64,000 bases of DNA from Spirosomataceae bacterium TFI 002 (GTDB lineage: Bacteria; Bacteroidota; Bacteroidia; Cytophagales; Spirosomataceae). Made by a program: the position numbers and the translations under genes. Under the pieces are notes generated by a model that worked only from the letters and a program-made list of their open reading frames with translations, had not been told where the DNA came from and ran no database searches. This document shows, piece after piece, positions 1,974 through 50,121 of the stretch (within the stretch, counting starts at the first letter, position 1; every line of letters begins with the position of its first letter). The DNA is taken from contig LT907983.1 in assembly GCA_900230115.1 (NCBI GenBank), forward strand, positions 248,001 through 312,000. The letters are read 5' to 3'.

Positions 1974-3764
1974 TTATAGTTTTTCTAATTGTACATAAAA
2001 TGCACCTCTCTCTTTTCCATTTATATCAGTAAGCCAAGTTTGAAGCTGGTTTGGCCCAGATTCTAAAGCCATTTCAAATTCAAAATACGCAGGATTAGGG
2101 AGTGAACTTGAGCTTAGTTCAAGGTCTCCAATTTTTAGCTTTGCCGCACTAAATGTTGCTCCTATTCCTTCATTATAAGGTGTTCCTCCTTCTACAGGAT
2201 CTCCCACTTTTACATTTTCATTCATTGCTTTCATCAATGAAGGTGCCCAGCGAAAGAGTTTGATCTTGTACTTTCCACTTTCTTCTACCTTTATTAACCA
2301 GTGACCATTTCCAATAAAATCTTCTCTTATGTGATTTTGATTCCAAGGTGGTGCCTCTTTGGAATGCCAGTCATGAGCTGTTAGTATTACAGGGTTTTCT
2401 TGCTTTGCCCCTACATGCAAATAATTCTCCTTCTTAATATCTTCCTGAATACTCTCCCACCAATTTTCATATCCTTGAGAAAGTTCAGCTCCCTTTTCAG
2501 GAAATTGCTCAATTAAGTTTTCTTTTTGAGAAGGGTCTTTAGCTAAATCATATAGTTCCTTATTATTGACCAATCGCCAGTTTGCTTGCATTACGCTAGC
2601 ATTTTTCCACTTTTTTGGCCATTCTTCTCTTTGTGTATCTGCTACTAAGATTCTATTATCCAAGCTAGAATCACTGCCTTTGGTTAATAGCGGCTTTAAG
2701 CTAAGCCCATCGAACTTTTGATCTGCTTTTGATTCAATTCCTAATAGGTCTAAAACAGTAGGCATAAAATCAACATAAGAAGTTAACTGACTGAATGATT
2801 GCTTTGCAATTTCCATACTTTTGGGAAAGCGTATGAAGAAAGGAACTCTATGCCCTCCATCGTATTCCGAGCCTTTTTTTGCTCTCATATCCGCATTGAA
2901 CCCTTTTACTACCTGTCCTCCTTTATCAAAGTTTGCTCCTGATGAAGTTCCATTATCAGTCATGTAAATAAAGATCGTGTTCTCCCTAAGCCCCATTTCT
3001 TCTAATGCCTTTTCTAGCTTTCCTACATTCTCATCCACATTGGTAATCATTCCATAAAAATTTGGATTAGGAATGTTTTCATTACCGCTGTACATATCAA
3101 TGTATTTTTGAGGCACATGGTATGGACCATGGGGAGCATTGGTTGCGATATAGGCAAAAAATGGTTCTCCCATTTCTTTCGATTTCTTTATAAATTTGAT
3201 GGACTCTTCAAACCAAATATCGGTGCAATAGCCTTCGTATTTTTGAGGCTCTCCATTAAGAAAGTAAGTGTCATCAAAATAGTCATTGTTCCAATAATCG
3301 GGAGTTTGTCCAACCCCACCGCCACCATGAACAAGTACTTCGTCGAATCCTCTATCTTGAGGTCTATAAGGATAGTTATCTCCTAAGTGCCATTTCCCGA
3401 AAATTCCCGTACTGTAACCGGCCTCTTGTAAATACTGTGGTAGTGTCCTGAATCTGTCACTTAACATGGAGCGTCCCATGATTGTATGCCACGCACCTAC
3501 CCTATTACAATTATTTCCAGACATAAGCCCAGACCTTGATGGGGCACAAGTGGTACCCACATGAAAATTTGTAAAGGTTACACTTTCACTTTGGAGATTA
3601 TCCAAATTTGGAGTTTGAATCCATGGATTTCCGTGGCAACCTAAGTCACCATAGCCTTGATCGTCGGTTAAGACATATACAATATTGGGTTTTGACTGCT
3701 CAATTTGAGTTGCACAATTACTTAAACAGAAAACTAAAGCAAAATAGCCTAGAAAGAATTTCAT
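1974..3764 (-). CDS. Sulfatase lipoprotein with extra C-terminal beta domain
   Basis: This is an arylsulfatase-type S1 enzyme of 596 residues. The signal peptide ends in a lipobox-like LSNC (14-17), so it is probably a lipoprotein. TDDQGYGD (33-40) is the first metal motif, C73-A-P-S-R77 the formylglycine site and GKWHLG (123-128) the conserved Lys/His motif; MTDNGT supplies the second metal ligand. The sulfatase fold ends near residue 465. About 120 further residues with His/Trp- and Gly-rich strands form an added domain that may bind carbohydrate (inference). It is the first gene of a two-gene operon with the sulfatase downstream. The pair points to degradation of a sulfated glycan, possibly algal or animal. 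No SusC/SusD pair is present here, so the substrate is unknown. Confidence 0.92.
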   Translation of the reverse strand: MKFFLGYFALVFCLSNCATQIEQSKPNIVYVLTDDQGYGDLGCHGNPWIQTPNLDNLQSESVTFTNFHVGTTCAPSRSGLMSGNNCNRVGAWHTIMGRSMLSDRFRTLPQYLQEAGYSTGIFGKWHLGDNYPYRPQDRGFDEVLVHGGGGVGQTPDYWNNDYFDDTYFLNGEPQKYEGYCTDIWFEESIKFIKKSKEMGEPFFAYIATNAPHGPYHVPQKYIDMYSGNENIPNPNFYGMITNVDENVGKLEKALEEMGLRENTIFIYMTDNGTSSGANFDKGGQVVKGFNADMRAKKGSEYDGGHRVPFFIRFPKSMEIAKQSFSQLTSYVDFMPTVLDLLGIESKADQKFDGLSLKPLLTKGSDSSLDNRILVADTQREEWPKKWKNASVMQANWRLVNNKELYDLAKDPSQKENLIEQFPEKGAELSQGYENWWESIQEDIKKENYLHVGAKQENPVILTAHDWHSKEAPPWNQNHIREDFIGNGHWLIKVEESGKYKIKLFRWAPSLMKAMNENVKVGDPVEGGTPYNEGIGATFSAAKLKIGDLELSSSSLPNPAYFEFEMALESGPNQLQTWLTDINGKERGAFYVQLEKL

Positions 3765-47593: not shown

Positions 47594-48262
47594 ATGAAAT
47601 ATTTTATCAGTGTTTTTACCTTATTAATTACAGTTTCCTCTTTTTCTCAAGACTTCGCCAATAGCAAGAATACGCTACTACAATTTCAATACCTAAGCGA
47701 AAGCTCAACACTTAATCAACTCGACAAATACAGTGCATCTACTTCCAAAGAGAAAGCAATGCAAAAGAGATCGGTTGATAAAATGTCAGTAGCTATTGAA
47801 GATCTATTTTATGAATCCTTTGAGAGAAACCTCGAAGAAAAAAACATTACGCTAGAAGACAAAAACGTTTTAGAAAACTATGGAATAATATATAATAATG
47901 GCTACCCAAATGTTATGGTAGCAAAATCGGCAATAAAAAAGATTACCAAGAAAGGATACGAAGGAGATCTGTTTTTTAATGTGAATATGGATACTAATAT
48001 TGACACAGGACTGATGAGTTCTTCCTCTAAAATTGTAAATAAATTTATTCCATCCGCAACCTTTAAAATAGACATCTGGAATTCGGACCTTGAAAAAGTA
48101 AAAGAACTAAAGTTTAAAGCTTCAGCTCCTGAGAAAATTGAAAACAAAGCTTATTTTGGTAGTAGGTTTGATAAAATGGATGGAGAAATGATCGATCGCT
48201 TAATTGAGCTCCTATCACCATTAATAGCCGAGAGTGTAGATAAAGCTTTTGAAGATCTGTAA
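47594..48262 (+). CDS. Secreted hypothetical protein, 222 residues
   Basis: This protein has a signal peptide at 1-18 (SSFSQ) and no lipobox. The mature protein is mixed alpha/beta with many Lys, Asp and Glu residues and no cysteines. Segments such as YGIIYNNGYPNVMVAKSAIK and FIPSATFKIDIWNSD recall small periplasmic lipocalin- or LPS-assembly-like proteins, but I cannot place it in a family. It stands alone between the rplY terminator and the tRNA-Ser gene. Confidence 0.75.
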   Translation: MKYFISVFTLLITVSSFSQDFANSKNTLLQFQYLSESSTLNQLDKYSASTSKEKAMQKRSVDKMSVAIEDLFYESFERNLEEKNITLEDKNVLENYGIIYNNGYPNVMVAKSAIKKITKKGYEGDLFFNVNMDTNIDTGLMSSSSKIVNKFIPSATFKIDIWNSDLEKVKELKFKASAPEKIENKAYFGSRFDKMDGEMIDRLIELLSPLIAESVDKAFEDL

Positions 48263-48393
48263 TGGGCCTATCGAAAAAGAATGCTTTCTATCTAAATTCG
48301 AAGGAATCAGTTATTCCAATCATAATTTGAGATATTTAATACCATTAAACTATTTCAAATCTCCTTAGAATACACGTACTTTGCAGCCCTCAA

Positions 48394-48480
48394 AGAGAGG
48401 TGTCCGAGTGGTTTAAGGAGCACGCTTGGAAAGCGTGTGTACGGGCGACCGTACCGAGGGTTCGAATCCCTTCCTCTCTA
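48394..48480 (+). tRNA. tRNA-Ser (anticodon GGA)
   Basis: This is an 87-nt class II tRNA. The acceptor AGAGAGG pairs with CCTCTCT, and the anticodon stem CACGC/GCGTG encloses a loop with GGA at 48428-48430. The long variable arm (GTACGGGCGACCGTAC) is typical of tRNA-Ser, and the T-loop is TTCGAAT. The CCA end is not encoded. A near-match -7 box (TACTTTG at 48377-48383) lies just upstream, and a terminator follows. Confidence 0.97.
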
Positions 48481-48500
48481 CTGAATGTCATTTATCTTAG

Positions 48501-48539
48501 AAAGCCGTCTCAATTTTAAAGTTGCGACGGCTTTTTTTA
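48501..48539 (+). terminator. Terminator of tRNA-Ser
   Basis: AAAGCCGTC pairs with GACGGCTTT, with an inner CAA/TTG extension, and is followed by a run of T. It separates tRNA-Ser from tRNA-Arg, which has its own -7 box. Confidence 0.85.
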
Positions 48540-48612
48540 TGCATTCGAGATAAAAAGTTAATTTTTCTAACAAATATATAGCCTCAGTATTTCATGGTTT
48601 AAAAATTCTGGC

Positions 48613-48620
48613 TACTTTTG
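48613..48620 (+). promoter_or_regulatory. -7 box of tRNA-Arg
   Basis: TACTTTTG is an exact TAnnTTTG match, 16 nt before the tRNA. Transcription would start near 48627, about 10 nt before the mature 5' end. Confidence 0.65.
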
Positions 48621-48636
48621 CATTCCCAAAGGGAAT

Positions 48637-48710
48637 GGCCTCGTAGCTCAATTGAATAGAGTACTTGATTACGGCTCAAGAGGTTCCAGGTTTGACTCCT
48701 GGCGAGGTCA
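48637..48710 (+). tRNA. tRNA-Arg (anticodon ACG)
   Basis: This is a 74-nt tRNA with acceptor GGCCTCG / CGAGGTC, one G-U pair, anticodon stem CTTGA/TCAAG and anticodon ACG at 48671-48673 (inosine at position 34 needs TadA). The D-loop reads AATTGAATA and the T-loop TTTGACT, so positions 19 and 56 are A and U where almost all tRNAs have G and C. The CCA end is not encoded. A hairpin terminator follows at once. A truncated copy of its 3' half lies 250 nt downstream. Confidence 0.95.
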
Positions 48711-48716
48711 CGAAAG
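48691..48716 (+). repeat. 26-bp direct repeat, copy A (3' end of tRNA-Arg)
   Basis: This copy begins in the T-loop of the intact tRNA-Arg (TTTGACTCC...) and runs 6 nt past its 3' end (...CGAAAG). It is identical over 26 bases to 48966-48991. The copies are 275 bp apart and in the same orientation. Confidence 0.9.
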
Positions 48717-48740
48717 CTCATCGAAAGATGGGCTTTTTCA
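48713..48740 (+). terminator. Terminator of tRNA-Arg
   Basis: AGCTCATC pairs with GATGGGCT (one G-U pair) around a GAAA tetraloop and is followed by TTTTC. It starts directly after the tRNA. Confidence 0.75.
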
Positions 48741-48764
48741 TTTTCTGCCCTACAATTTTTTAGC

Positions 48765-48788
48765 CACCAGGACACCAAGTCACAAAGA
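48765..48788 (+). repeat. Three-unit 8-bp repeat (CACCAAGT-type)
   Basis: The units are CACCAGGA, CACCAAGT and CACAAAGA. Dispersed CAC-AAG octamer runs of this kind are, as I recall, found between genes in many Bacteroidota genomes. A related word, GACGCCAAGTC, interrupts the damaged tRNA copy downstream. Confidence 0.5.
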
Positions 48789-48918
48789 ATGTCCTTTTTG
48801 TATATTGCCTAGCCCAAAGTGATCAAGTCTAACTAATTCTAAACAATAGAGGTTATTACTGATTATCTAACAGTCAAAATTTTATACATAGAATCCAGAC
48901 TTTTATTTTTTAACGTTA

Positions 48919-48990
48919 AGAGTACATGATTCCAGCTCAAGAGATTGCAGGGGGGACGCCAAGTCTTTGACTCCTGGCGAGGTCACGAAA
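48919..48990 (+). pseudogene. Truncated tRNA-Arg copy
   Basis: Aligned with the intact tRNA-Arg from its D-arm onward, GAGTACATGATTCCAGCTCA corresponds to GAGTACTTGATTACGGCTCA. The anticodon loop is changed (TTACGGC to TTCCAGC), and a 14-nt insertion (GGGGACGCCAAGTC) sits in the T-stem. From there the T-loop, the acceptor 3' strand and the flank are identical over 26 bp. The 5' acceptor strand and most of the D-arm are missing, so it cannot make a tRNA. A T-run after GGTGGGC recalls the parent terminator. Confidence 0.75.
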
Positions 48991-48991
48991 G
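48966..48991 (+). repeat. 26-bp direct repeat, copy B (inside the damaged tRNA copy)
   Basis: This is the exact partner of 48691-48716. Identity stops at the left in the inserted 14-mer and at the right where copy A has a CTCATCGAAAGAT segment that copy B lacks; the following GGGCTTTTTC is again shared. Confidence 0.9.
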
Positions 48992-49254
48992 GTGGGCTTT
49001 TTCTTTTTACCTTAACTCACATCAGCCTTTCGAGAATACTAAATACTCGGAGTTCCAGAAAAACGAACTAAAAGAAATTGAAAAGGCTGACCTGTCGCAA
49101 AACAATTAATGTAAAGCTTTTTCTAGAAGATTGACAACTTTGCTAACTATTGGAAATTAAACTCCAAATGAAAAGAAAATATACTTTGCCATACAACTAA
49201 GTTTCACGGAGACTTTACCCCGTAAAACTTAACATACAAAAGGGACATATTCAA

Positions 49255-50121
49255 TTACGCCTCCAACCACTGCTTGGTGATAGTGGCGAATCCGTTGGCT
49301 AATTCGGACACTTCATATCGTCCTTCTACACTAATTGCACCTTTATATTTTGCTTTTTTCAGAATGCTCATGTATGGCTTAAAATCCTGATTTGTAGTTC
49401 CTGGCATGCGGCGATCTATTAATTCTGCAATTTCAACATGCATAAGAATATCCGTTACTTTTTTGAGATCTGCTGGCGTATCTCCTTCAGTTACCATATG
49501 ATAGAAATCTGCAACAGCCTTTATGTTAGGATGATTCGCTCCACGTACAACTCGCTCTACTTCCGAGATACGGTTAATAAAATTACATTCTTGGTGACGA
49601 AGCTGTTCAACTCCGACTGTAAGGTCATATTTTGCAGCTAAAGGCCCAATACGCTTTAGCAATGCAATGAATTGGTCCATCGCAGTTTCGTAATCATAGC
49701 CCTCTGGAATTTTTCTTGAACCACCGCTTCCGAAGTTGATCATATGAACATTGGCTCTTTGAGCACGTCTGAACACTTCCTCTATATATACCATGAGCTC
49801 GTCATGATTGGCTTCAGGACCAGTAGCATGAAGATGCTTTGGCCTGATAAAACCATTACATATTTTGATTGGCAACGACGCTGATTTACCTTTTGCTACA
49901 CGTGCTAAAAACTCGTCTTCTGGTCCATCAGGGTCTAACCATTCTCCCACACTTGAACCAATGAAGCTTCCTCCTGCGGCCTTAACGGCATCTATATTTT
50001 CAAATTTTGTCTGGCAAGCCAAGGGCGGAACATATTTTTTGGCAGAAAAATCTTTCCAATTAATTGTTAAGACTCCTGCGGTAGAAGCAAATAAAGCTTT
50101 ATTAAAATCTCTTCTTTTCAT
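49255..50121 (-). CDS. Exported sugar phosphate isomerase/epimerase-like TIM barrel
   Basis: This 288-residue xylose-isomerase-like TIM-barrel protein starts at the ATG at 50121 to place a twin-arginine type signal at the N-terminus (MKRRDFNKALFASTAGVL). The family motifs GVEQLRHQECNFINR, VKAVADFYHMV and the metal-binding Glu/Asp/His residues in these strands, ending with ISVEGRYE, are present. Family enzymes act on sugars and cyclic polyols. A Tat signal suggests export as a folded metalloprotein. It lies 56 nt downstream of the asparaginase gene on the same strand, so they may share a transcript. Confidence 0.87.
   Translation of the reverse strand: MKRRDFNKALFASTAGVLTINWKDFSAKKYVPPLACQTKFENIDAVKAAGGSFIGSSVGEWLDPDGPEDEFLARVAKGKSASLPIKICNGFIRPKHLHATGPEANHDELMVYIEEVFRRAQRANVHMINFGSGGSRKIPEGYDYETAMDQFIALLKRIGPLAAKYDLTVGVEQLRHQECNFINRISEVERVVRGANHPNIKAVADFYHMVTEGDTPADLKKVTDILMHVEIAELIDRRMPGTTNQDFKPYMSILKKAKYKGAISVEGRYEVSELANGFATITKQWLEA

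Follow-up and report, generated by a model that had tools for sequence, protein, structure and literature searches.

The window analysed here is a 64-kb stretch of DNA, bases 248001-312000 of a single-contig genome of 5.46 Mb. It contains an intact tRNA-Arg(acg) gene, uninterrupted according to ARAGORN, with an intact tRNA-Ser(gga) gene upstream and a terminator-like hairpin behind it (Table 1; canonical tRNA numbering was assigned by hand). The 3' end of tRNA-Arg(acg) recurs downstream on the same strand as an exact 26-bp direct repeat, TTTGACTCCTGGCGAGGTCACGAAAG, where none was expected by chance in 100 shuffles. Allowing up to three mismatches, no third site was found within the window, and a search of the region against its own genome (E <= 0.001) listed, apart from the self-match, a single hit, which falls in the spacer, and no further copy of the 26-mer. 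The initial annotation had described this repeat in the same orientation, together with about 30 further tRNA bases carrying five mismatches upstream of its second copy; both descriptions were borne out. The insert that interrupts the second copy and the partial repetition of the terminator had gone unnoticed there.

Table 1. Features of the tRNA-Arg(acg) locus, in window coordinates
Feature	Position	Strand	Basis or remark
tRNA-Ser(gga), intact, upstream neighbour	48394..48481	+	ARAGORN; Rfam RF00005
tRNA-Arg(acg), intact, parent of the copy	48637..48711	+	ARAGORN; Rfam, 57.8 bits
26-bp repeat, copy 1	48691..48716	+	T-loop to 5 nt past C74
Terminator-like hairpin 3' of the intact tRNA	48712..48744	+	Fold; repeat D3
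Spacer	48712..48918	.	207 bp, 33% G+C
Pseudo-tRNA-Arg	48919..48986	+	Canonical 21-53, insert, 54-74; alignment score 72.7
Pseudo-tRNA-Arg, upstream part	48919..48951	+	33 bases, canonical 21-53, 5 mismatches; homology starts at A21
14-nt insert GGGGACGCCAAGTC	48952..48965	+	Between T-stem (53) and T-loop (54)
Pseudo-tRNA-Arg, downstream part	48966..48986	+	Canonical 54-74, 0 mismatches
26-bp repeat, copy 2	48966..48991	+	Exact match to copy 1
Terminator, partial copy	48986..49008	+	Repeat D3, 91%; fold

The second repeat very probably belongs to a loop-interrupted pseudo-copy of tRNA-Arg, which in linear numbering comprises tRNA positions 22-54, the insert GGGGACGCCAAGTC and positions 55-75; its alignment score compares with a maximum of 24 for reversed-tRNA controls over 30 loci. 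The terminator is also partly duplicated behind it. A partial copy on the same strand as a nearby intact tRNA, with a loop insert of at least 10 nt (here 14 nt), places it in the class of copies treated below. Neither GGGGACGCCAAGTC (p 0.38) nor the whole copy (z +1.1) folds better than shuffles, and the window holds six matches to GGGGACGCCAAGTC with up to three mismatches, itself included, vs 3.2 expected. By itself the locus is modest; what makes it interesting is the class of copies it represents.

The spacer has no open reading frame of 60 aa or more. No GIY-YIG remnant was detectable in it in six frames with filters off (best E 0.61), and no GIY-YIG gene was found in the 64-kb window. 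It does hold a dispersed repeat of type CACCAAGTCACAAAG at 48760-48790, which recurs at 1246127 of the genome, where variants of this type cluster (L072 about 3100-3350, minus strand). A group I intron in the tRNA was rejected as a candidate: the intact tRNA is uninterrupted, and no Rfam intron family matched in 48200-49300. Upstream of tRNA-Arg(acg), the place taken by tRNA-Ser(gga) in the window is held in four related loci (L064, L065, L066 and L067) by a NuoK-type gene, assigned by Pfam (PF00420) for L064 and L066 and by eye for L065 and L067. Because the upstream neighbour differs, tRNA-Arg(acg) has moved, perhaps with its copy.

Interrupted and tandem tRNA copies in the genome and its family

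Copies of tRNA genes were sought with an insert-tolerant aligner, and reversed tRNAs served as the control. In the window genome, same-strand interrupted copies were found for 7 of 32 tRNA genes examined (control 0/32, maximum 25); these 32 genes come from 30 loci, out of at least 35 tRNA matches in the genome. Besides Arg(acg), the genes concerned are Asn, Ala(ggc), Arg(cct), Met, Glu and Val (loci L039, L043, L053, L054, L056 and L034), of which the Val, Ala and Glu copies score weakly (32-38, near the cut-off of 30). A palindrome, TCCCGAT..ATCGGGA, lies at three places in this genome, two of them in tRNA-Ala pseudo-copies. An insert family shared within the genome was also considered and set aside: GGACGCC occurs in three of the seven inserts (P 0.005), with P 0.07-0.08 for 5- and 6-mers, which is suggestive only.

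For tRNA-Arg(acg), a search matched 114 of 150 genomes of the family, and the window locus was taken together with the 29 other best loci. Eight of these 30 loci carry a copy: the window, G021, G019, G139, G037, G111, G054 and G063 (L060, L005, L007, L009, L011, L015, L021 and L027). Their scores run from 38.5 to 89.1, the next best true score and the control maximum both being 24. All eight are interrupted, with inserts of 6-41 nt as aligned, and six have an insert in the T-arm (linear 50-55). A GIY-YIG gene is present at two of the eight loci (G021 and G019) and absent from the other six. The seven inserts of other nuclease-free Arg copies fold no better than shuffles (p 0.39-1.0). G065 has two tRNA-Arg(acg) genes, each with an interrupted copy whose insert, of the GAGTGCGACTCCCG type, lies in the anticodon loop, and no GIY-YIG gene was found in the stretch read. 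In a looser comparison of 55 tRNA loci, 12 had BLAST-visible copies (the window locus counted twice), and for these 12 there was no GIY-YIG match among the matches listed. Copies without a nuclease are thus not rare.

Intact duplicates of the same gene also occur. Two intact same-strand tRNA-Arg(acg) genes lie about 36-58 bp apart in five relatives, G020, G059, G082, G091 and G010 (loci of the tandem genes and of the G065 copies: L317-L320, L323, L321, L322), and in G001 the pair is inverted, with 2.7 kb between its members. The 29 other loci read, the two of G065 and the one of G028 each have a single intact gene. No GIY-YIG gene was found near the tandem or inverted intact pairs in the 700-3701 bp read (700-901 bp for the five tandem pairs), so that duplication occurs in these relatives without a nuclease in view.

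Small GIY-YIG genes beside tRNA genes

At the G021 locus, a broken 5' piece of tRNA-Arg is followed by an 81-residue GIY-YIG gene (PF01541), whose stop codon falls inside the intact tRNA-Arg that comes next. The order in G019 is broken piece, intact tRNA-Arg, GIY-YIG gene (PF01541) and pseudo-copy, and the frame of the gene runs into the pseudo-copy directly behind it. This pseudo-copy carries GGGACGCCTAGTC, nearly the window insert, at the identical site, plus two palindromes. When positions 48920-48974 of the window, insert included, were compared with the loci of five relatives (L064-L068), the best match was the G019 pseudo-copy (84% of 55, E 1e-8), and the next best for the window copy was the intact tRNA of G021 (E 1.2e-7). 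A best match of this kind, insert included, makes the window copy a probable relative of a nuclease-linked one, although the window holds no nuclease gene and the neighbours of the two copies differ. The window genome itself has four small GIY-YIG genes and a fragment, none with a tRNA gene in its locus. Those at L073 and L075 sit among repeats (GTCAGGTCGAGCGTAGTCGAGACC and others), one with an in-frame TGA.

The association with tRNA genes extends well beyond these two genomes. Used alone against 150 genomes of the family, the G021 protein gave hits at 24 loci spread over 18 genomes, and half of these loci (12) lie within 150 bp of a tRNA gene, in every case on the same strand. For a random 81-codon reading frame the chance of such a neighbour is about 0.4-0.7%, given 35-45 tRNA genes. 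Eleven of these proteins, mostly tRNA-adjacent, made up profile A1, which therefore favours tRNA neighbours, the unbiased figure being that of the single-protein start. Matches to A1 occurred in 110 of the 241 order-level genomes (E <= 1e-10) and, for the class, in 164 out of 295 (E <= 1e-12); not all of these matches are tRNA-linked.

Within the order, 114 loci were assembled from the 24 single-protein loci, the 30 best profile loci and 60 hand-picked among the matches listed, two places being included twice. A tRNA gene lies within 150 bp at 73 of these 114 GIY-YIG loci, on the same strand in 73/73, and BLAST-visible broken copies accompany 62 of the 73. The remaining 41 loci comprise contig ends, more distant tRNA genes, loci with no tRNA and a subgroup with an opposite-strand tRNA-Ala. 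In this different arrangement, seen at L094, L173, L179, L180, L183 and L186-L189, the GIY-YIG gene is separated by 155-193 bp from tRNA-Ala(ggc), and there are no broken copies. After removal of duplicates, 82 loci had a same-strand tRNA within 600 bp, and the aligner found copies at 71 of them (control 0/82, maximum 28; 130 alignments, two of which span masked sequence). At class level, a tRNA gene is found within 150 bp at 24 of the best 30 loci, on the same strand in all 24 and with copies at 22; at four no tRNA was called. Among named genomes, searched with the protein from the tRNA-Ala locus of G294, the corresponding figures were 55 of 80 loci, 55/55 on the same strand and 50 with copies, with no tRNA called at 12. 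The order, class and named sets overlap in genomes (e.g. L226 is 100% identical to the G294 query). Named hosts include Algoriphagus, Echinicola, Belliella, Roseivirga, Flavobacterium and Aquimarina, and metagenome-assembled hosts are labelled Ignavibacteria, Marinimicrobia, Cloacimonadota and Calditrichaeota. One scan of viral contigs found no relative of the tRNA-Ala nuclease.

The loci have a recurrent architecture. Of 62 copies lying 3' of a GIY-YIG gene, 43 start at tRNA position 2-30, like the window copy. Of 104 nuclease genes counted, 77 have a tRNA copy near; the frame runs into the copy that follows and ends there in 40, ends just before it in the other 37, and the remaining 27 genes have no copy near. 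Tandem units of nuclease gene and tRNA copy were found at L113, L120 and L127. Long tandem arrays of tRNA-type GIY-YIG genes were also seen: ten genes about 457 bp apart at G466:C9:906049-910392, the longest array, with no tRNA in the part read (L215), and eight genes about 364 bp apart at G521:C34:6988-9766. In Runella zeae (L081 1843-2585), tRNA-Met is split at the usual intron site into pieces 1-37 and 38-75, which are separated by about 670 bp and lie downstream of a GIY-YIG gene.

The nucleases follow the tRNA beside which they lie. In 70 of 104 cases, the closest GIY-YIG relative in a different genus lies at a tRNA gene of the same isoacceptor. When each combination of genus and isoacceptor was represented by a single protein, the isoacceptor agreed in 41 of 68 (shuffles: mean 3.8, maximum 16) and the amino acid in 52 of 68 (mean 5.4, maximum 20). 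This tracking is the best evidence that the nuclease may act on its tRNA gene rather than merely adjoin it.

The proteins are small, about 80 residues; the phage nuclease SegB, considered below, is larger at about 220. Residues Y6, Y17, G19, R27, H31 and E63 are invariant in the 11 rows of A1 and belong to the conserved GIY-YIG core. By profile, the closest solved relatives are 1ywl and 1zg2 (UPF0213), then chains of Slx1, described in that profile result as a structure-specific endonuclease subunit. Although the UPF0213/YhbQ-type and Slx1 families are thus nearest, no NCBIfam model scored above its cut-off for the one bacterial protein tabulated, and the other ten reached E 2e-5 at best; we know of no tRNA link for either family. 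The median dN/dS was 0.07, a weak figure with only 3 of 55 pairs usable (dS saturated).

The inserts of the broken copies sit in the D, anticodon and T arms, and their sequence and position differ among genomes. The copies match their own genome's tRNA closely at the 3' end, and some retain the terminator. Among 49 distinct inserts of at least 10 nt at nuclease-linked loci, 13 fold better than shuffles at p <= 0.05, and as a set they do so with Fisher 1e-9. A 20-bp palindrome, CCTGCCTGYCGGCAGRCAGG, was found at 13 places in six of eight genomes searched, most of which were picked for having it, and not in the window genome or G294. Seven of these places are broken tRNA pieces at nuclease loci, one is a tRNA-Leu copy interrupted in the D-loop and lacking a nuclease, and five lie outside tRNA genes. 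REP/RAYT systems combine palindromic repeats with a RAYT transposase. CCTGCCTGYCGGCAGRCAGG resembles them as a short, low-copy palindrome lying partly outside tRNA genes, and differs from them in that 8 of its 13 places are in tRNA copies.

Origin of the window copy

We read the pseudo-copy behind the functional tRNA-Arg(acg) as a product or relic of a tRNA-specific GIY-YIG nuclease system, with a probability of roughly 0.55. The window locus has the same-strand broken copy, the start inside the tRNA and the repeated terminator of tRNA-linked GIY-YIG elements, and the GIY-YIG gene is absent. In the mechanism we propose, a free-standing GIY-YIG nuclease would cut one tRNA gene, and recombinational repair would duplicate the 3' part of the tRNA with its terminator, giving a mobile unit of nuclease gene and second tRNA copy. 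One copy would carry inserts, often hairpins, in the D, anticodon or T arm, and the other would stay functional; the interrupted copy would be useless as a tRNA and, as we propose, resistant to cutting. A nuclease gene may once have stood at the window site and been lost, or may never have been carried by this copy. Several observations weigh against this reading: neither the spacer nor the window shows a GIY-YIG trace, the insert folds no better than shuffled sequence, six of the eight Arg(acg) loci with a copy lack the gene, and the five tandem intact pairs have none in the stretch read. The upstream neighbour also differs, tRNA-Ser(gga) in the window and a NuoK-type gene in G019, profile A1 is biased towards tRNA neighbours, the small GIY-YIG genes of the window genome lie away from tRNA genes, and the G466 array has no tRNA in the part read.

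The nearest known and tested system is SegB of T-even phages (T6), described in the available text of two papers as a free-standing GIY-YIG homing endonuclease that adjoins tRNA genes and cuts inside them (PMC13096335; PMC2988022). According to the text available from the first, SegB drives tandem amplification of the tRNA-nuclease segment by recombination, the 3' end of the nuclease shares microhomology with the 5' end of the tRNA, and no tRNA isotype is favoured (PMC13096335). The bacterial loci share with it the GIY-YIG nuclease and the tRNA neighbours, and their products have the shape to be expected, with tandem units of nuclease gene and tRNA copy and with frames that often stop within the tRNA copy that follows (40/77). 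In contrast to the phage-borne SegB, the bacterial genes are chromosomal and their lineages follow the isoacceptor; loop-interrupted tRNA copies, found at the bacterial loci, go unmentioned for SegB in the available text of its sources (PMC13096335; PMC2988022). In the open-access literature, the matches listed include no account of bacterial tRNA-linked GIY-YIG genes or of loop-interrupted tRNA copies, an absence that this leaves unproved.

A possible alternative is plain tandem duplication of the tRNA-terminator block followed by decay, the nuclease genes being later passengers with no part in this locus and the inserts small repeats that landed in dispensable copies. That the tRNA-Arg(acg) gene duplicates in the family favours this explanation and also the tandem duplication already named as an option in the initial annotation, and the five relatives with two intact tandem genes and no GIY-YIG gene in the stretch read keep it a live rival. 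It gains further from the want of any nuclease trace in the window, from the frequency of nuclease-free interrupted copies in the window genome and the family, and from the insert palindrome family that occurs outside tRNA genes at 5 of 13 places. It accounts less well for a start in the D arm, as in most copies behind a GIY-YIG gene, and for a near-identical insert at the same site of a nuclease-linked copy; nor would passengers be required to track the isoacceptor, as the nuclease lineages do. The initial annotation had tied a simple duplication to two intact tandem genes in all relatives, and such pairs were found in five, not in all.

An improbable explanation is the scar of a tyrosine integrase, in which the 26-bp repeat would be attL and attR flanking an element since deleted down to about 200 bp. 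A direct repeat of the tRNA 3' end, as in tyrosine-integrase att sites, is indeed present at the locus, and the perfect 26 bp differ from the part upstream, with its 5/33 mismatches, at Fisher p 0.06. The initial annotation had proposed to look in related genomes for an island or an intact second gene; integrase-type genes do follow tRNA-Arg(acg) in G044 and G058, besides the two intact genes in five relatives. These Phage_integrase-type genes (L065 5842-7187; L067 1213-2569) start about 70 bp behind the tRNA, in a genomic context that differs from the window. The G058 gene scores above the Pfam cut-off, the G044 gene just below it for PF00589 and above it for the integrase SAM-like domain. 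A detached 3' end of tRNA-Arg, with two decayed copies behind it, also lies on a different contig of G058 (L068, minus strand, 5512-5300). In the window, however, there is no integrase between or beside the repeats: none of the 16 Phage_integrase matches listed for the genome lies there, the nearest being about 232 kb from its edge, and the genome matches listed include no third 26-mer. Homology reaching up to A21, well upstream of the repeat, the insert that breaks the copy in its loop, and the six other tRNA genes of the genome with interrupted copies are not explained by an integrase and therefore disfavour the scar, as does the near-identity of the insert to that of the G019 copy behind a GIY-YIG gene. 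According to the available text of one study, integrase islands likewise have a partial direct tRNA copy beside the intact gene, their copies bounding kilobase elements, and loop inserts go unmentioned there (PMC9897764). The repeat is probably not a virus or island scar; between the scar and the decayed tandem copy weighed in the initial annotation, the second came nearer, and the first found no support here.

It is very improbable that the interrupted copies persist because they serve as RNA genes, such as decoys or regulators, with the nuclease riding along: close 3'-end agreement with their own tRNA and the terminator kept in some would fit, but insert sequence and position vary, a copy is present at only 8 of 30 Arg loci, and the fold of the window copy is no better than that of shuffles.

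Where the 3' end of a tRNA gene is duplicated, the usual interpretation is an integrase island; in this phylum such a repeat can accompany a tRNA-specific nuclease gene instead, which may mislead programs that find islands or annotate tRNAs. Should the nucleases cut as we infer, essential bacterial tRNA genes would be a standing target of minimal selfish genes. Some tRNA duplications and pseudogenes would then have a cause that can be tested, and the same might hold for changes at conserved positions of tRNAs.

The A19-U56 pair of tRNA-Arg(acg)

The G19-C56 tertiary pair is near-universal in tRNAs. In the window genome, G021, G044, G019 and G058 (the window; L005, L006, L007, L008), tRNA-Arg(acg) has A19 and U56 instead (GAATAG, GTTTGA), a compensated change; the remaining 25 Arg(acg) loci, out of 30, retain the usual G19-C56. 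Among the 31 distinct tRNAs of the window genome, Arg(acg) alone has no GG in the D-loop. The broken 5' tRNA-Arg copy in G021 has G19. The available source for SegB reports the motif RAWTSGAAC; in our own reading this would correspond, on the other strand, to the T-loop consensus GTTCSAWTY, and a change of C56 to U would break the motif.

A wider picture, tentative and rather doubtful as a whole, would join these observations. In Bacteroidota and some neighbouring phyla, minimal homing nucleases of about 80 residues, each lineage dedicated to one tRNA gene, would be widespread, spreading and amplifying by cutting the tRNA gene and re-forming the tandem; interrupted copies would be uncuttable, and the functional tRNA-Arg of the window clade would have escaped cutting through A19-U56. 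As a general sign of escape, a change in the T-loop was rejected: TTCRA is kept in 57 of 60 distinct intact GIY-linked tRNAs vs 32 of 33 controls, which limits the A19-U56 change to a single clade.
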